This document shows, piece after piece, positions 9,038 through 38,992 of a stretch of 64,000 nucleotides of DNA. Every line of letters starts with the position of its first letter. Within the stretch, counting starts at the first letter, position 1. The DNA lies in assembly GCF_000374545.1 (NCBI RefSeq), contig NZ_KB894601.1, forward strand, positions 1 to 64,000, written 5' to 3'. Below the pieces are notes generated by a model. That model was not told the origin of the DNA. It worked only from the letters and a program-made list of their open reading frames with translations, and made no database searches. Made by a program: the position numbers and the translations under genes. The stretch is from Anaeromusa acidaminophila DSM 3853 (GTDB lineage: Bacteria; Bacillota; Negativicutes; Anaeromusales; Anaeromusaceae).

Positions 9038-9190
9038 ATGATTCTATGTATCGGCATCATACGCCACGGAGTAAAAACCGTAACATATATTCAAGACGGG
9101 CGCGTAATACTTAAAACCACATTAAGCCAACCGCCGCGCCCCCCCAAGGGAACTGCCGCAAAACGACCGAGTGATGCTTATGTACAATGA
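9038..9190 (+). CDS. Small ORF before the transposase gene
   Basis: 50 residues, ATG at 9038 preceded by GAGGTGAT. It reads MILCIGIIRHGVKTVTYIQDGRV and ends within the start region of the transposase gene (overlap about 20 bp), so the two may be translationally coupled. The only support is its ribosome-binding site and tight spacing. No family recognised. Confidence 0.45.
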   Translation: MILCIGIIRHGVKTVTYIQDGRVILKTTLSQPPRPPKGTAAKRPSDAYVQ

Positions 9191-11099
9191 GGCATTAACG
9201 GTCAAAGAAGTTGCTAAGTTGCTTGGGGTTTTAGAAAGAAGGATTCGGCGCCGAGTCGAACGAGGTGAATACCCGAACGCTACCCGCGAGAAATCCAATA
9301 AAGGCGGCAGTGAACTTATCAAAATTCCGCTTTCAGACCTGCCCGATGATGCGCAAACGTCCTATTTAAGGCAAAAAGGGCTTATTCAAAACCAAATTCC
9401 AGACGATGGCGGCGAATTCGCCAAGGCCCCGGAGACAAAACGCAATGTGGCCCTGGAACGCCTTGGCATTCTGCAAGCATGGGACAAGTACCTTTGGGAC
9501 AATCGGGAGCGGGCGGAAAAGACGAAGCTGAGCGAAGAATTTGCAGCGGCAACCAGCCTGCCGAACGGCAAGCGCGTATCCATGAAAACCCTGTACCGCT
9601 GGCAAAAGGACTACCGCGAAAACGGACTTTGTGGCTTATTGCCTGACTGGGGGCGGCGCGATGATCGGCACTCCATAGATGATGCAGCCTATGAATATTT
9701 TTGTGCGCTGTATCTTACGGAGAAAAAGAGATCCGTCCGGTATTGCTACGACCTGTTAAAGAGCAAGGCGCTTGAAATGGGCTGGTTAATTCCCGGCTCG
9801 GTAAAAACGCTGCAGCGAATTGCCAATGAAATTCCCGAAGCGGTGCGAGTTGCCGCTTGCGACGGTAAAAAAGCGGCTTACGACAACTGCCTGCCGTACA
9901 CCGAGCGGGACATAGAAAGCGTTAAAGGCAATCAAGTGTGGGTCGGCGACCATTTTATCGGAGACTTTTTCATCGCCGGACCTAAAAAGAAAAAAGACGG
10001 CGGCACAATCTGGACGCGCCCCTGGTTTACCATGTGGATGGACTTTCGCAGCCGGAAGATGGTTGGCTGGCATATTGACTTCACCCCGTCCACCGGAACA
10101 ATCATTGCGGCGTTTGCCAATGCCGCTCTAAATCCCAATATTGGGCTGCCGCAAGAAATACTTACCGACAACGGCCGCGACTATTGTTCCAAAGAATTTG
10201 CTGGCCGAGGCCACAGAAAAATTGCGGACGAACAAGAAGAACGCCGGGTCAAACCACTAATTGAACACCTGGGCGTTGGTGCACATTTTGCCATTCCAGA
10301 AAACGCAAGAGCCAAGCCGATTGAAAGAGAGTTTAGAACTTTTGCCGAGCATTTTTGTAAAGAGTTCGCCTCCTATTGCGGCTCCCGCCCGGAGGCGCGG
10401 CCGGAAGACTTGGAAAGCACTCTTAAAGGATTGCCGACATATAACCTCACCATGGACGACTTAAAGCGGCTTTTTTCGGACTGGGTGCAGTATGTGAAAA
10501 ACAAACAAGTATCCGAAGGCAAAGGACGCAAAGGAGAATGCCCCGATGAGACATTCGCCAGGACGCGGCTGCCGCTTCGGCTGGCTCCGATGGAAGCCAT
10601 GCGGCTTCTCTTCCAGCGCCATACCCAGGCGGTCAAGGTCAATCGGTGCATGGTCAAATTCCGTGGTCAAAACTATTTTCATGCCGACTTGGCGCTGCAT
10701 AAGGACAAACACGTATATATCCGATACCGCGAGGAAGATTTAAGCGTCGTCAGCGTCTATAGCTTAAAAGATGAATGGCTGCTCGACGCGCAGATCACCA
10801 GCGCCCTGCCGGCTTTCGGAGCAACGCCGGAGCAGTTTGCAGTCGAGGGGGCCAAAAAGAAAGCGGCACGAGAAAAAATCTACAAGCACCCGAGCATGCA
10901 AGCCGCCAAGAAAACAAAGGTAGACAGCCTAGAGACGGAACTTGCCCGCCGCAAGCGTCTGGCATCGCCGGAAACGCCAGCCGACAATGTGGTCATTCCG
11001 GTAGCTGTCGGACAGAACATCCTCGATTCCGCACGCCAGCAAAGCGGTCGGAAATCACGGCGTAAAATCGACATTATGAGCGTATTGAGCAAAAATTAA
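9171..11099 (+). CDS. MuA-like DDE transposase
   Basis: 642 residues. A winged-helix DNA-binding domain leads (NEALTVKEVAKLLGVLERRIRRRVERGEYP), then a second HTH region (KTLYRWQKDYRENG). The integrase core carries the DDE triad in VWVGDHFIGDF, ILTDNGRDY and RAKPIEREFRTF, and a Mu-type C-terminal beta-barrel region plus basic tail follow. It cuts and joins the prophage ends during integration and replicative transposition. GTG 9171, ATG 9174 and ATG 9180 are all possible starts; none has a strong ribosome-binding site, which fits coupling to the upstream small ORF. Confidence 0.95.
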   Translation: MMLMYNEALTVKEVAKLLGVLERRIRRRVERGEYPNATREKSNKGGSELIKIPLSDLPDDAQTSYLRQKGLIQNQIPDDGGEFAKAPETKRNVALERLGILQAWDKYLWDNRERAEKTKLSEEFAAATSLPNGKRVSMKTLYRWQKDYRENGLCGLLPDWGRRDDRHSIDDAAYEYFCALYLTEKKRSVRYCYDLLKSKALEMGWLIPGSVKTLQRIANEIPEAVRVAACDGKKAAYDNCLPYTERDIESVKGNQVWVGDHFIGDFFIAGPKKKKDGGTIWTRPWFTMWMDFRSRKMVGWHIDFTPSTGTIIAAFANAALNPNIGLPQEILTDNGRDYCSKEFAGRGHRKIADEQEERRVKPLIEHLGVGAHFAIPENARAKPIEREFRTFAEHFCKEFASYCGSRPEARPEDLESTLKGLPTYNLTMDDLKRLFSDWVQYVKNKQVSEGKGRKGECPDETFARTRLPLRLAPMEAMRLLFQRHTQAVKVNRCMVKFRGQNYFHADLALHKDKHVYIRYREEDLSVVSVYSLKDEWLLDAQITSALPAFGATPEQFAVEGAKKKAAREKIYKHPSMQAAKKTKVDSLETELARRKRLASPETPADNVVIPVAVGQNILDSARQQSGRKSRRKIDIMSVLSKN

Positions 11100-11111: not shown

Positions 11112-12065
11112 ATGTTAGCAAATGCAATGGTTCAACAGGAGGCCACTATCGACATCCAGGCGGTACGCGAAAGCCTGAAAACATATATTGAAACAACCGG
11201 AAAAACCCAGTCTGAAATAGCCAGAAGCGTAGGCGTTTCCGGCTCTCGAATCAGTCAATTCTTAAAAGGAACTTACCCTGGAGATAACGAGCAGCTAGCC
11301 TATTCCCTGCAACAAATGATGAGTGTGGACACGCGCCGCCAGCAGACGGTAAAAAAGCCGGGTTTCGTTGTCACCACTACTGCCAAGGAAGTGGCCACAG
11401 TGGCACGCTACACCCATGAACATACAGATATCGGCGTAGTTTACGGGCCGGCCGGCATCGGCAAAACCATGGCGCTGCAGCAATACGCACAAGAATATCC
11501 ATCCGTTGTTTTTATCACGGTGGACGTAACAACATCTAGAGCCAAGGCGCTGCTGGAGGAAATTGCAGATAAAATCGGCACAAAATCGTCGGGCACGCAG
11601 GCCGCCATTAAACGCGGCATTGTATCCGAGCTGCGCGGATCGGGGCGCATGGTCATTCTTGATGAAGCGCAGCACCTGACCTATGAAGCGCTGGAAGCCT
11701 TACGCACCATCTTGTACGACGCCTGCGGAGTTGGCATTCTGCTTTGCGGTAATGAAACCATCTATTCCAACATGGTCGGAAAGCGAAACGCCCCGTTCGC
11801 GCAGATTTTCTCCCGCGTTGGCATCAACCGGGGCATAGGGAAAAAGGTTAGCCTGGAGGATATCCGAAAGATTGTATGTCAGGATCTACCTGTATCGGAA
11901 GAATGCGTGCAATACTTCCATTCGGTAGCCAACAGCAACGGCGGAATCCGCCTGGCGGTGAAACTGTTCGTGCTGGCCTGGGAAACCGCCAATCGGATTG
12001 GCGAGCCTATCAATTTGGACATTCTCGCGTCGGCATCGGAATTTTTGATGCAGCATAATGCGTAA
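11112..12065 (+). CDS. MuB-like AAA+ target-capture ATPase
   Basis: 317 residues with GGAGGTG upstream. An N-terminal XRE-like HTH (QSEIARSVGVSGSRISQFLKG, residues 36-56) precedes the ATPase, as in MuB. Walker A is YGPAGIGKT, Walker B is MVILDEAQHL, and sensor-like LLCGNE follows. MuB binds target DNA, stimulates MuA and gives target immunity. The tight spacing with the transposase gene (12 bp) is the classic A-B pair. Confidence 0.93.
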   Translation: MLANAMVQQEATIDIQAVRESLKTYIETTGKTQSEIARSVGVSGSRISQFLKGTYPGDNEQLAYSLQQMMSVDTRRQQTVKKPGFVVTTTAKEVATVARYTHEHTDIGVVYGPAGIGKTMALQQYAQEYPSVVFITVDVTTSRAKALLEEIADKIGTKSSGTQAAIKRGIVSELRGSGRMVILDEAQHLTYEALEALRTILYDACGVGILLCGNETIYSNMVGKRNAPFAQIFSRVGINRGIGKKVSLEDIRKIVCQDLPVSEECVQYFHSVANSNGGIRLAVKLFVLAWETANRIGEPINLDILASASEFLMQHNA

Positions 12066-32553: not shown

Positions 32554-35500
32554 TTGGGAGGTCTTTTCGGTGGCGGCAGCACGATATCGCATGAAGAATC
32601 GCGAATCAACGCGCTGCGTATCCAACAAAGTACCTATGGGGCCGTCATCCCCATTGTTTTTGGTACGACTCGAATCACCGGCAATTTTTTGGATTATGAC
32701 GATTTTACCGCCATTCCGCACACGACGACGCAGTCCTCTGGTGGTAAAGGTGGCGGTGGAGTTACCCAGACGGAAACCACCTACACCTATACTACGGCAA
32801 TCATCATTGGCTTATGCGAAGCTATGGTGCAAAAGATTGGCCAAGTGTGGTCAGGGAAAGAAATTACCACGCTGGCGGCTAAAAGCCTGGAAATGTATCA
32901 AAACCAGATATGGCCATACATGCAGTCTAAGCACCCGGATAAGGCGCTGACATACAAAGACACAACGTATGTGGCCGGAGTAATCGACCTCGGTTCTTCG
33001 GGGGATATCCCAAATCTTTCTTTTGAAGTATTTGCGCTGTGCCAATACGGGCGCGGGATTATCGACGCTTTGCCGACAGACGTCATCCGCGAGCTGCTGG
33101 TCAACGACCAGTTCGGTATTGACTTCCCGGTATCGTGCATAGGCGATTTAACGTTATACACTTCCTATTGCATCGCAAACGGCCTGTTTATCTCCCCTGC
33201 TTTTACTGAACAAAAGGAATGCCGGGAAAATATCACTGATATATTGCAATGCACAAACAGCGAGGCGGTATGGAGCCAAGGAAAGTTAAAAATCGTACCA
33301 TATGGGGATGAAGTGGTTTCGGGAAATGGCGTGACATACAACCCGCCGCCCGCTCCCTGGTACGATTTGGATAATAACGACTTCCTTCCTGATGATGACG
33401 AAATGCCTGTCATCTGTAAGCGAAGCAGAACTGCCGATGCCTATAATATTCAGCCGTTCGAGTTTTTAAGCAGGGCCAATGGCTACAACATTGAAACTGA
33501 CGACGTGAAGGATGCCGCCAACATTGGCATGTTCGGGCCGCGACCGGCTGAACCAATTTCGATGCACTTTTTTTGCGATAAGCAGGCAGCCAAAACGGCA
33601 GCCCAGGGAATTCTGCAGCGAAAGCTCTATAAACGGAATCAGTACGAATTTAAAATAGGCTGGAAATATTACCGCCTGGAGCCAATGGACATCGTCACGC
33701 TTACGGAAGAGAATCTCGGCTTGGTTAAAGAGCCGGTGCAAATTGTTAGCATTGAAGAAATCGACAACGGCCGGTTTCAAGTTGTGGCCGAAGAGTGCCC
33801 GGCTGGCGTCCATGGCATAACGAAATATCCTTGCAAAGACGCTGAACGATCCCATATAAACTACAATTGCAGTCCTGGCGAGGTAGCGACTCCGATTATC
33901 TTTGAACCGCCGGCGGAAACTGTACAAAATGGCCTGGAATTATGCGTGGCCACTTGCGGCGGTACGAGTGATTTCTGGGGCGGCGCGTGCGTCTGGGTAA
34001 GCTATGACGGCGACACTTATAAGCAAATAGGGAGAATCACAGCTCCAGCCCGAATCGGCAAGTTGATTACAGCACTGCCGGAGGGGTACTCCAAAGATTA
34101 TCAGAACAAACTGAGCGTGAAGCTGCAGGGCCGCGCCGATCTGCTCAGCGGTACTGCGGCTGATGCGGATATGAAAAATACTTTGTGCTATGTTGACGGG
34201 GAGTTTATCTCTTACGAAACGGCTCTTTTAAAGGGCGTCGCGCAGTATGATCTGTACGGGCTGCGCCGTGGAGCGTATGGGTCAGCTATCAAAAGTCATG
34301 CTGCAGGGAGCAATTTTGTCCGCGTGGACAATGCTATCTTTCATTATCCGTACCGTGTCGAAGATATCGGCCGCACCATTTTTATTAAGTTTACCAGTTA
34401 CAATATTTTTGGCGTGAGCATGCAAGAATTGAGCGAGGTTGACGCGTACAGGTACACGATACAAGGAGCCGAACAAAGCGTGCCGGCGGTTAGCTTCACT
34501 GTCACCCAAGACGGCGAAAAGCTGACTGCTTCTCTAGACAGAACCTTCTTGGATTCAAATAATAATAGCTTTTTCTCTTATGAATTACGCTTCGGCAGTT
34601 CTTGGGATTCTGGGGTTTTAATGGGAATATTCTCAGGTTCAAGATACACGTTTGACGCCCCGCAGGAAGGGACGCTCACCTTTTGGTTGCGTGCTGTTGA
34701 CAATAAAGGAAACGCTTCAAAGACGGCCGCCAGAGCTACGGTGAACGTGGTCGGGTTGCCTAAACGAAATGTATTGTTTGAACGTACCGACGCCCCGGAT
34801 GTTTGGGCCGTAGAGAATATGTATCGGGTGGAAAACGGTTACACGCTGCAAGGAATAAAGGTCCTGCGGGATTACGAAAAGTTTTTTGATATCTTTGTGA
34901 TTCCTCCTTATCTTACGGATTCTGCGTATATTTATTTGCCACTGATTGACCTCGGGGAAAATATCATAGAAAGTGACTGTTATTATATTGACCCCGTGGG
35001 TGAGTGGCATCTGCGCAGTGTAGAAACATTGCGGGATTACGGAAAGTTCTTTGATATCTTCGGAGCGCCTATTCACTATGTAACCCCAAAATATGCCGTT
35101 CAGACATTTGCGACCATCGACGTACAATATGACCACAAACAGAATGTTCGTTTAGAAACAGAGTATCGGGTCAGCTTCGACGGTAAAGTTTGGAGCGACT
35201 GGGTAACCTCTACACAGAAACAGTTTTATGGTCGTTTTGTGGCCATTCGCATCCACCCGGTTTCACTGGACGGGTTAACCAACACGGTAGTGCGCTCGGT
35301 AAAGGTCAGTATCGACGTTCCTGATCTGGAAGACCGAATCGTTAATGTAGATGTGCCGGCGCAAAAGACGCATGTAACTTTCCACCGTCACTTCACGCTG
35401 CCGCCGATGCTTGGGATATTCGCTCAAGATTTGAACGGAAAACAAGCGACCTGGCGCGTGTCGAATATTACAGAAACCGGGTTTGATATTGAGTTGCTGG

Positions 35501-35559
35501 ATGCTAGCGGCAATCTAATCGCAGGCAAATTACCATTAATAATTGCAAGGGGGTATTGA
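32554..35559 (+). CDS. Tail tip protein (J-like / GTA host-specificity type)
   Basis: 1001 residues from TTG 32554, 6 bp after the peptidase stop. The N-terminus (GGGSTISHEESRINALRIQQSTYGAVIPIVFG) and IGLCEAMVQKIGQVWSGKE match siphovirus tip attachment proteins. The middle has LYKRNQYEFKIGWKYYRLEPMDIVTL, and the C-terminal 300 residues contain fibronectin-like repeats (two YEKFFDIF / YGKFFDIF copies at about 773 and 830). It plugs the tail and probably positions the fibre proteins that follow. Confidence 0.85.
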   Translation: MGGLFGGGSTISHEESRINALRIQQSTYGAVIPIVFGTTRITGNFLDYDDFTAIPHTTTQSSGGKGGGGVTQTETTYTYTTAIIIGLCEAMVQKIGQVWSGKEITTLAAKSLEMYQNQIWPYMQSKHPDKALTYKDTTYVAGVIDLGSSGDIPNLSFEVFALCQYGRGIIDALPTDVIRELLVNDQFGIDFPVSCIGDLTLYTSYCIANGLFISPAFTEQKECRENITDILQCTNSEAVWSQGKLKIVPYGDEVVSGNGVTYNPPPAPWYDLDNNDFLPDDDEMPVICKRSRTADAYNIQPFEFLSRANGYNIETDDVKDAANIGMFGPRPAEPISMHFFCDKQAAKTAAQGILQRKLYKRNQYEFKIGWKYYRLEPMDIVTLTEENLGLVKEPVQIVSIEEIDNGRFQVVAEECPAGVHGITKYPCKDAERSHINYNCSPGEVATPIIFEPPAETVQNGLELCVATCGGTSDFWGGACVWVSYDGDTYKQIGRITAPARIGKLITALPEGYSKDYQNKLSVKLQGRADLLSGTAADADMKNTLCYVDGEFISYETALLKGVAQYDLYGLRRGAYGSAIKSHAAGSNFVRVDNAIFHYPYRVEDIGRTIFIKFTSYNIFGVSMQELSEVDAYRYTIQGAEQSVPAVSFTVTQDGEKLTASLDRTFLDSNNNSFFSYELRFGSSWDSGVLMGIFSGSRYTFDAPQEGTLTFWLRAVDNKGNASKTAARATVNVVGLPKRNVLFERTDAPDVWAVENMYRVENGYTLQGIKVLRDYEKFFDIFVIPPYLTDSAYIYLPLIDLGENIIESDCYYIDPVGEWHLRSVETLRDYGKFFDIFGAPIHYVTPKYAVQTFATIDVQYDHKQNVRLETEYRVSFDGKVWSDWVTSTQKQFYGRFVAIRIHPVSLDGLTNTVVRSVKVSIDVPDLEDRIVNVDVPAQKTHVTFHRHFTLPPMLGIFAQDLNGKQATWRVSNITETGFDIELLDASGNLIAGKLPLIIARGY

Positions 35560-35962: not shown

Positions 35963-36252
35963 CAAAACGATTTTTTCCTAAAGACTGCGGAATTGCTTTT
36001 GTGGCTGATGTGGCAATCGACGGCGACCATATAAGTGTGCCGGACTTCGTCTTTGAGCTAGACGGCAAGGAACATCAAATCACCGGCGGAGTCTTTGACG
36101 TTGTGGTTGGTGATACGATTTACATTACACCACAAGGGCTTCAAAAGGTGCCGGAAAAAGAGTACCCGGAACATTTATTTGAAAGTGGATCCGCTTACTG
36201 GCTTGTAAGTAAAACGAAAGACGACATTCTGGTATTGGAGGTAGAGAAATAA
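35959..36252 (+). CDS. Small tail-associated protein, unknown
   Basis: 97 residues, overlapping both neighbours by a few bases. MTKRFFPKDCGIAFVADVAIDGDHISVPDFVFELDGKEH, then strands ending in DDILVLEVEK: a compact beta protein. No family recognised. Tight coupling to the adhesin gene suggests a fibre adaptor or assembly factor for the DGR target. Confidence 0.6.
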   Translation: MTKRFFPKDCGIAFVADVAIDGDHISVPDFVFELDGKEHQITGGVFDVVVGDTIYITPQGLQKVPEKEYPEHLFESGSAYWLVSKTKDDILVLEVEK

Positions 36253-37334
36253 TGATAGTCATTCAAGCAAACAATTTCCCTCAATATAGTATTGGTGCCG
36301 ATGCCGTTTTTGAACCGCTCTTTTTGCCGCCGGATGGGAATAGAACGCGCTTTTGTATTGGATGGTCTGGGTTAGGCCGCTACACAGCCGGCACTCTCCG
36401 CCTGTGGCGCAATGGAGTAAGTTTAGCGCCGAATGTTGATTTTATCGAAGAAGATAATGGCATGTTCTATAAATTTACTACCGCCCCTACGGGAAAGCTC
36501 TTGGAATATATGGTTTCCTATGTACCGAGAGCGACCGATAAAGCCTTTGCAACTGGAACCGACGAAATGTTTCTGTTCCCTAACTGGTTGGGCGCGGTTG
36601 GCATTGGCGATGCCTTCTGGATCGGAAGACATGCAGCTTCAAGAAGTGATGCGTCAAATACGGCTGTCGGAACCTCAAACGTGCCGAGTTCACGGCGCAG
36701 TGTTGTTCCGTGGTGCTCGGTAGACTTTGCGACCGCCAAAAGTGCTTGCTTCGCCAAAGGAACCGGCTGGCATATCGTACAGAACCGCGAGTGGGCAAAT
36801 ATCGCACGCTGGTGCAAGCTCCTGGATATTTACCCGACAGGAAACTCGGCCAGCGGCGTAGATGGTATGGGCGTCGCTCATGCGCCCGATCCGACAGTAT
36901 CGGGAAGAGCGCTTACCAGCACCGGGCCAACGACATCCAGTCATAACTTGCTGCCGAGTGGCATATACGACCTAGTCGGCAATGTTTGGGAATGGATTGA
37001 TGGCGTACAGCTTCAAGGTGGTGTATTGTGGATTTTCGATGGCAACAATGCTTTGGTGACTACTGGGATTAACCCTACTTTTGGATCTTCTGGCGGCGCA
37101 TTTTCATACCTTCGTACAGACGCAAACCTTGTAAACGAATGCATCCCAGCCACGACCGGAGAATCTTGCAGAGGAAATGATGGTTTCTGGTTTAGTGCTT
37201 CCGGCGTTACCCAACTTCTAAGAGGTGGCGGCTGGGGCAACGGTGCCCTCGGCGGGCTGTTTACGTTCGGCGTCAACGGTGCCCCGTCGGGCTCCGGTAC
37301 GAGCGTTGGCTTCCGCCTCGCAAAGAGCATGTGA
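36252..37334 (+). CDS. DGR target: receptor-binding protein with C-type-lectin/FGE-like variable domain
   Basis: 360 residues. Residues 1-115 form a beta-rich N-terminal domain that probably docks on the tail. Residues about 118-360 match FGE-sulfatase/C-type-lectin-fold DGR proteins (FWIGRHAASRSDASN, WHIVQNREWANIARWC, YDLVGNVWEWIDG, LLRGGGWGNGAL, GFRLA). The last 34 codons are the variable repeat. Against TR, codons 327, 334, 340, 343, 347, 349, 351 and 352 differ; TR-coded N, D, N, N, N, D, N and I are now G, G, G, G, G, G, S and V. The fold holds the variable residues on a surface for ligand binding. It should sit at the fibre tip and set host range. Confidence 0.92.
   Translation: MIVIQANNFPQYSIGADAVFEPLFLPPDGNRTRFCIGWSGLGRYTAGTLRLWRNGVSLAPNVDFIEEDNGMFYKFTTAPTGKLLEYMVSYVPRATDKAFATGTDEMFLFPNWLGAVGIGDAFWIGRHAASRSDASNTAVGTSNVPSSRRSVVPWCSVDFATAKSACFAKGTGWHIVQNREWANIARWCKLLDIYPTGNSASGVDGMGVAHAPDPTVSGRALTSTGPTTSSHNLLPSGIYDLVGNVWEWIDGVQLQGGVLWIFDGNNALVTTGINPTFGSSGGAFSYLRTDANLVNECIPATTGESCRGNDGFWFSASGVTQLLRGGGWGNGALGGLFTFGVNGAPSGSGTSVGFRLAKSM
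37223..37323 (+). repeat. DGR variable repeat (VR)
   Basis: 101 bp aligned without gaps to 37733-37833 (offset 510). There are twelve differences at 37230, 37231, 37252, 37269, 37270, 37278, 37279, 37290, 37291, 37297, 37303 and 37305. Each is A in TR and G here. The last 18 bp (37306-37323) are identical and form the likely IMH where homing starts. Homology stops a few codons before the gene's stop. Confidence 0.95.
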
Positions 37335-37336
37335 TA

Positions 37337-37363
37337 ATCTGAAATCTGTAATCTGAAAATCTG
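37337..37363 (+). repeat. Four short ATCTG repeats between the DGR target gene and the Avd gene
   Basis: ATCTG at 37337, 37344, 37351 and 37359, a 7-8 bp period (AATCTGA-type units). They directly follow the target stop and run into the Avd ribosome-binding site. They are not self-complementary, so they do not form the hairpin seen after VR in some DGRs. Confidence 0.7.
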
Positions 37364-37375
37364 GAGGTTTTTAAA

Positions 37376-37714
37376 TTGGTATCTGACCTAGCTATTTGGC
37401 AAAAAATCGTGGATATGACTGCATACGTCATCCCGGTATGTAATAAATTTCCCAAGAACCAACGCTTCGTTTTAGGACAGCAAATTCAAAACAAATTACT
37501 GCAGTTGGCAACAACGACGATTGAGGCCAATAAAGCTAGGAATAAAACTCAATTACTTGATAAATTAGACACAGAATTGGATCAGTTTCGATTCTTAGTC
37601 CGGGTTGCTGCTACCTTAAAACTGATGCCAGGACAACAATATGAGAACATTGCTAAGATGACGGCAGAAGTAGGCCGTATGTTGGGCGGTTGGCAGCGGC
37701 GTTTTCGGGCATAA
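37376..37714 (+). CDS. avd: Avd-like DGR accessory protein (four-helix bundle)
   Basis: 112 residues from TTG 37376, with CTGGAGG upstream. All-helical and basic: LAIWQKIVDMTAYVIPVCNKFPKNQRFVLGQQIQNKLLQL, then ARNKTQLLDKLDTELDQFRFLVRVAATL and ENIAKMTAEVGRMLGGW. It matches Avd/bAvd four-helix proteins, which form a pentameric barrel that binds the reverse transcriptase and template RNA. It lies between target and TR, the classic order. Confidence 0.9.
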   Translation: MVSDLAIWQKIVDMTAYVIPVCNKFPKNQRFVLGQQIQNKLLQLATTTIEANKARNKTQLLDKLDTELDQFRFLVRVAATLKLMPGQQYENIAKMTAEVGRMLGGWQRRFRA

Positions 37715-37990
37715 ATTAGGGCGGCGGCTTATAGGTGGCAACTGGGGCAACGGTGCCCTCGACGGGCTGTTTACGTTCAACGTCAACAATGCCCCGTCGA
37801 ACTCCGATACGAACATTGGCTTCCGCCTCGCAAGCATGCAATTGCCCGAAGACGTCCGCTTCTCCGGTCGTCCTGTGCTCATGCTCTTGGAGCCGCCGTC
37901 CTTCCTCTCAGAGGTAAACAGCAAGATGTCAGCGTCCGGCTGGTAGCGTTTGCGAATGTGGGGCGACTTTTATTACTCAGGTGATAGTAT
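37715..37990 (+). ncRNA. DGR template RNA region (TR plus spacer)
   Basis: The interval between the Avd gene and the reverse-transcriptase gene holds no protein gene. It contains TR (37733-37833) and a 157-bp spacer that should be transcribed with it. In the Bordetella DGR the spacer is needed for priming cDNA synthesis. Exact RNA ends cannot be read here. Confidence 0.75.
37733..37833 (+). repeat. DGR template repeat (TR)
   Basis: 101 bp, 12 mismatches to VR, all at adenines. 22 adenines lie in this span (23 counting the A at 37731 just outside) and 12 of them correspond to G in VR. If read in the VR frame it is rich in AAC/AAT codons (seven Asn), the usual DGR design allowing many amino acids without stops. 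Confidence 0.95.
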
Positions 37991-38992
37991 TTGAAACGTT
38001 TTGGAAATTTATACGAAAAAATTTACGATTGGCAGAATTTAATCTCCGCCTATCAAAAAGCACGGCTAGGCAAACGATATAAAAGTGATGTGCTTCGCTT
38101 CTCTCTTAACCTTGAAGAAGAAATATGCAACATTCAGAACCACCTGATATGGGGAACATATAAACCAGGCGACTATTATTTGTTTAAGGTATATGAGCCG
38201 AAAGAAAGAGATATAATGGCCTTGCCTTTTAAGGATAGAGTGGTTCAGCACGCTCTTGTAAACGTCATTGAAGCGCTGTTTAACAGGTCTTTTATTTATG
38301 ATAGTTACGCTTGTAGAGTCGGGAAAGGCTCTCAGCGTGGAATGTTGAGAGCGCAGGAATTTATACGCAGGGCTGGTCCTGGTTGTTGGATACTCAAGGC
38401 TGATATAAAAAAGTTCTTCAATAATATTGACCATTCTATCCTTAAAAGAATACTTATAAGAAAGATAAAATGCCGCAAAACCCTTTGGTTATGCGGCCAA
38501 TATATTGATAAGCACGGAGGCAAGGCTGGAATACCTATAGGAAACTTGACAAGCCAGTTATACGCGAATATCTACCTGGACCAATTGGATCATTATGTTA
38601 AAGATATGCTCGGTATAAAATGGTATGTTAGATATATGGATGACTTTATGATTGTATGTAAAACAAAAGAAGAGGCATATAATTTAAAGAAACATCTTGC
38701 AACCTGGTTATGGGAAAACCTTCGTATGGAGTTTAACAGCAAAACCCAGGTGTTCCCCGAAAGGCAAGGAGTAAACTTCCTGGGCTATAGAATCTGGCAT
38801 AATGGTATTAAAATAAGACATACAACGGTGCGAAGGTTGAAAGGTAAAATCAAACGTTTTAAACGGATGAGGGTAAAAAGAAAAGCATCGGTAGCTGATA
38901 TTATACCGACGCTGATGAGTTGGCAAGGTATGGCAAAATGGGGGAATTGCAGGACGATTGAAAAGCGGATTTTTAAACTATTAAACGAATGA
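37991..38992 (+). CDS. DGR reverse transcriptase
   Basis: 333 residues from TTG 37991 with AGGTGAT upstream. Catalytic residues: D138 in LKADIKKFFNNID and YMDD at 215-218. The DGR-specific block I-G-N-L-T-S-Q (183-189) replaces the QGxxxSP of retrons and group II introns. The thumb follows, ending WGNCRTIEKRIFKLL. It copies TR RNA with errors at adenines to make mutagenic cDNA. The gene is clearly A+T richer than the tail genes, suggesting separate ancestry. Its stop is 47 bp from the phage end. Confidence 0.95.
   Translation: MKRFGNLYEKIYDWQNLISAYQKARLGKRYKSDVLRFSLNLEEEICNIQNHLIWGTYKPGDYYLFKVYEPKERDIMALPFKDRVVQHALVNVIEALFNRSFIYDSYACRVGKGSQRGMLRAQEFIRRAGPGCWILKADIKKFFNNIDHSILKRILIRKIKCRKTLWLCGQYIDKHGGKAGIPIGNLTSQLYANIYLDQLDHYVKDMLGIKWYVRYMDDFMIVCKTKEEAYNLKKHLATWLWENLRMEFNSKTQVFPERQGVNFLGYRIWHNGIKIRHTTVRRLKGKIKRFKRMRVKRKASVADIIPTLMSWQGMAKWGNCRTIEKRIFKLLNE

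Follow-up and report, generated by a model that had tools for sequence, protein, structure and literature searches.

A phage DGR whose variable region differs from its template by A-to-G changes alone, probably at the edge of the usual DGR spectrum

In the window, a 64,000-nucleotide stretch of the Anaeromusa acidaminophila DSM 3853 contig NZ_KB894601.1, the variable region (VR) of a prophage DGR differs from its template repeat (TR) at 12 positions, each of them a template adenine that reads G in the VR. Set against the VRs of related elements, this is very probably an ordinary DGR, and its all-G VR an uncommon result of the kind that a known, biased process is expected to yield. In the mechanism that we propose, a complex of the reverse transcriptase (RT) and Avd would reverse-transcribe the TR RNA, erring opposite template adenines, and the cDNA would replace the VR in the 3'-terminal part of the adhesin gene, thereby altering the receptor-binding surface. 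Incorporation of dC opposite rA, read as A-to-G, would be the commonest error, making up about half of the changes, and 12/12 G would be a draw from the tail of the usual DGR spectrum. Single VRs vary beyond independent draws, probably through selection on residues, through the conditions of the retrohoming event, or both.

The DGR and its prophage

A transposable, Mu-like prophage of about 33.65 kb (5392-39043, within 5387-39048) carries the element at its right end and splits a trmB-type regulator gene into an N-terminal part (39208-38981) and a C-terminal part (5536-4736), both on the minus strand. The prophage has similar inverted ends (TATA...GAAGTTTGAGAA) and is flanked on either side by a 5-bp direct repeat, CTCGG. 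Occupying 36252-38992 in the order adhesin-Avd-TR-RT, the element is, as judged from its sequence, a canonical phage DGR, and the earlier note's reading of it as a DGR with TR and VR is borne out by its anatomy and gene families:

9171-11099, MuA-like transposase
11112-12065, AAA ATPase
36252..37334, plus strand, DGR target gene, phage adhesin/tail protein of 360 aa with an FGE-sulfatase (CLec-type) domain (Pfam PF03781, E 2.2e-7) and a C-terminal VR
37223..37323, plus strand, VR, 101 bp, 12 A-to-G changes relative to the TR (ungapped alignment to the TR)
37376..37714, plus strand, Avd accessory protein, 112 aa (Pfam PF22296 bAvd, E 4.5e-27; phrog_3206 Avd, E 1.4e-31)
37733..37833, plus strand, TR, 101 bp, 22 adenines, seven in-frame AAY codons (repeat comparison with the VR)
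37991..38992, plus strand, DGR RT, 333 aa, read from a TTG start, with the motifs IGNLTSQ and YMDD (Pfam PF00078 (RVT_1), E 8.9e-24; phage DGR RT family phrog_1423, E 8e-132)

The predicted target is of the CLec type, with the VR at the 3' end of its gene. The adhesin also matches the tail families phrog_2889 and phrog_5302, and its VR is homologous to the C-terminal GGxW...GFR-A VRs of relatives; an AlphaFold prediction from a 10-row alignment reached a pLDDT of 35 and was unusable. The RT carries the DGR-RT motif (I/V/L)GxxxSQ as IGNLTSQ, and its alignment with the BPP-1 bRT and relatives reveals conserved equivalents of bRT R74 and I181, which we take to be residues affecting adenine fidelity. 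Of the features that direct cDNA integration in DGRs, the IMH and a downstream hairpin, the element shows the invariant 3' end TTGGCTTCCGCCTCGCAA as a putative IMH, and no stable hairpin was found within 37300-37400 (z 0.08). We infer that the element is active. Searching the whole genome with the TR returned two matches only, the TR itself and the one VR. The reading frame of the TR stays open for ~37 codons beyond the repeat (window 37734-37947; SMQLPEDVRFSGRPVLMLLEPPSFLSEVNSKMSASGW), perhaps as a remnant of a target gene or simply as a spacer RNA region. Elsewhere in the prophage, the tail-protein gene at 32554-35559 contains a 31-bp direct repeat, 94% identical between its copies at 34865-34895 and 35030-35060.

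The core repeat was aligned without gaps at an offset of 510 (TR 37733-37833 against VR 37223-37323). Twelve of the 22 TR adenines are G in the VR and the other 10 are unchanged, with none replaced by C or T, and the 79 non-A bases of the 101-bp core are free of differences; all 12 core differences fall on TR adenines, and the earlier note's count of exclusively A-to-G changes was exact. Its interval, 37230-37305, spans the changed sites (37230, 37231, 37252, 37269, 37270, 37278, 37279, 37290, 37291, 37297, 37303 and 37305), although the repeat itself covers 101 bp, 37223-37323. At the codon level, the four Asn codons that it had reported as going from AAY to GGY are recovered in the alignment, along with two GAY codons that became GGY, an AAC that became AGC and an ATT that became GTT, such that every changed codon yields Gly, Ser or Val.

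Substitution spectra of related variable regions

Related loci were gathered from contigs (viral and genomic), phage records and related genomes, with the sequences of the RT, the adhesin and the 3' end as queries, and TR/VR pairs were detected with a script in which a mismatch at a template A was cheap and no substituted base was favoured. A pair needed at least 4 changed adenines to be detected (3 in the phage records) and at least 5 to be counted. VRs that duplicated another exactly were dropped, while some of the loci kept are near-duplicates with independent VRs, and the final set comprises 318 non-redundant VRs with 4,256 changes. Loci L003, L193, L235 and L272 are the same prophage as the one studied. 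Neither a closer RT relative (above 49% identity) nor a second VR of the same RT was found in the viral contigs, the genome contigs of 84,980 species, the phage records or 530 related genomes.

Across the final set, whose natural VRs mix mutation with selection and hence do not report an enzyme's raw error spectrum, template A was replaced by G in 51.2% of changes, by T in 31.2% and by C in 17.6%. The 35 VRs of the closest RTs (42-49% identity) gave 51% G, 31% T and 18% C, and the G/T/C proportions were 52/29/19 for loci found with the BPP-1 RT and 52/31/17 for loci found with the Bacteroidota-type RT of L080. An expectation of equal replacement by C, G and T is wrong, as A-to-G leads in DGRs generally (PMC3521204, PMC6642488); the earlier note's premise that DGRs place any base opposite template A holds insofar as all three occur in relatives (only G in the single VR here), but their frequencies are unequal. 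The new mutational rule that it entertained is not upheld: when the spectra of RT relatives were tabulated, as it had proposed, those at 42-49% identity produced A-to-C (18%) and A-to-T (31%) at the usual rates, the outcome that it had named as contradicting such a rule.

The lead of A-to-G and the wide variation of single VRs are already known, having been published in 2012 and 2019. In DiGReF 2012, changes to G were commonest and changes to C rarest, and VRs could differ drastically even within one DGR (PMC3521204); in MetaCSST 2019, which covered 948 DGRs, G took the place of about half of the replaced A (PMC6642488). Of the errors made by bRT in E. coli, 59.3% were dC misincorporations, with a dependence on context, unlike the result of an earlier in vitro study, which favoured dA (PMC12875486).

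Under a uniform A-to-N null, which is rejected by the empirical G/T/C spectrum of 51/31/18, the probability of 12/12 G is 1.9e-6. With the spectrum of the 318 VRs, a binomial model gives 3.2e-4, and a beta-binomial model, which allows for the overdispersion of the G fraction between VRs (rho 0.046), gives 2.3e-3; among this many VRs, 0.73 such cases would be expected. Conditional on which codon positions changed, the probability of all G is 2.2e-3, a value this high because AAY becomes GGY more often than any other double mutant (126/303 for AAC and 61/213 for AAT in relatives). By G fraction, the studied VR comes first in the set, and it is the only all-G VR with at least 8 changes, which places it at the edge of what DGRs show and agrees with the earlier description of its spectrum as unusual; by binomial tail, it ranks third, after L089 (20/22) and L293 (17/18). 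A codon model without extra dispersion produced any all-G VR in just 13% of simulated 192-VR sets, and the observed per-VR G fraction exceeds the variability of this model (chi2 334 versus a simulated 234 +/- 22; 192 VRs). Excess variability is also seen between near-identical RTs, with selection, dNTP pools and event-level effects as candidate causes. Host or locus GC was rejected as a driver of A-to-G, there being no correlation (Spearman 0.001). In 182 related VRs, 98% of the changed adenines in a CAG context went to G, a much higher share than in other contexts; this skew may reflect site-specific selection or an RT context effect.

Among named systems, the DGR of Bordetella phage BPP-1 (bRT, Avd, Mtd) shares the target-Avd-TR-RT order, the A-specific differences and the RT motifs, with an RT 37% identical to the one studied; the VRs of BPP-1, BMP-1 and BIP-1 are, however, unlike the studied VR, with C/G/T counts of 3/4/10, 3/3/3 and 2/2/6. 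The best RT matches among phage records (44-45%) belong to Vibrio phage VP58.5, Pseudoalteromonas phages ACA1/ACA2 and Vibrio phage ZX4290, whose DGRs have the same order but mixed spectra, and the mutually close ACA1, proACA1-A and ACA2 show 12/15, 6/10 and 3/8 G. Bacillus phage BalMu-1, named as Mu-like, likewise carries its DGR near the right end (RT 43% identical), with C/G/T of 5/4/1 in its VR as opposed to all G here.

Origin of the all-G variable region

Comparisons between close RTs locate the skew mostly in the VR. The VR of L028 has 12/13 G, and its RT is 99.4-99.7% identical to those of L022 (5/13), L025 (5/14), L026 (7/15) and L020 (11/14); against L022, L025 and L026, L028 differs with a Fisher P of 1.2e-3. 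The same is seen for L082 (14/17) and L075 (9/18), whose RTs are 98.9% identical, for L072 (13/15) and L119 (6/14) at 95%, for L293 (17/18) and L296 (6/11) at 86%, and for L067 (15/18) against VRs with 4/11 and 1/10 G at 84-85%. Heterogeneity of G within clusters has P 2e-4 at 80% RT identity and is weaker at 90% (P 0.058), and RT clusters differ modestly from one another (P about 0.01). Since near-identical RTs go with both near-all-G and mixed VRs, most of the skew belongs to the individual VR, by selection or by the retrohoming event, and not to the enzyme, with room for a small RT effect.

These data bear on a lineage-specific narrowing of the spectrum, in which this RT with Avd would misincorporate almost only dC opposite template A. 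Such narrowing would fit the 12/12 G and the lack of any all-G VR with at least 8 changes among the 318 others, and no close RT relative was found that could contradict it directly. However, the nearest RTs show normal spectra, this RT has the usual IGNLTSQ motif and the usual residues at the positions of bRT R74 and I181, and near-all-G VRs elsewhere have RTs whose closest relatives give mixed VRs. We consider the narrowing improbable, and it keeps the small probability that we allow it because this RT has one known VR and no relative found above 49% identity. Were the RT truly restricted to A-to-G, DGR error spectra could be narrowed, which would help to map the determining residues, and the RT-Avd pair would act in nature as an A-to-G (Asn-to-Gly/Ser/Asp) diversifier. 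A mutational rule cannot be drawn from a single TR/VR pair when half of DGR changes are A-to-G in any case, and the wide variation of single VRs even with near-identical RTs is a further bar to it. Less improbable, though still unlikely, is that strong selection on the adhesin for Gly, Ser and Val kept the all-A-to-G variant made by an ordinary enzyme, an explanation that overlaps with the preferred one and would then supply its main cause. The restriction of all changed codons to these three residues is consistent with it, as are the overdispersion of the G fraction beyond the codon model and, in relatives, the prevalence of GGY among double mutants together with the rarity of the Cys-coding TGY. 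In relatives, the same codons nevertheless encode Tyr, Asp, His, Ser, Phe and further residues besides Gly, which suggests that Gly is tolerated rather than required.

An A/G-only pattern would also be left by A-to-I editing of the TR RNA, or if the TR had arisen from a Gly-rich VR by G-to-A change, but we regard both as very remote. The bacterial editor TadA recognises a TACG core, and the two TACG sites of the TR are unchanged, which disfavours editing. As to the reversed origin, homologous TRs, among them L233 (which shares the 3' end), L004-L010 and L196-L215, have AAY at the matching codons, and ordinary G-to-A drift would not spare every C and T of the core. The AAY codons of these TRs imply that A is most probably the original state of the template, with the change running from A to G in the VR; they likewise disfavour the founder adhesin suggested earlier, with a TR derived from a Gly-rich VR. 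On the minus strand of L238, two repeats (268-383 and 822-937) have the 3' end GGCTTCCGCCTCGCAA in common with the studied DGR and differ from each other at A in both directions, as if both were VRs of an off-contig template.
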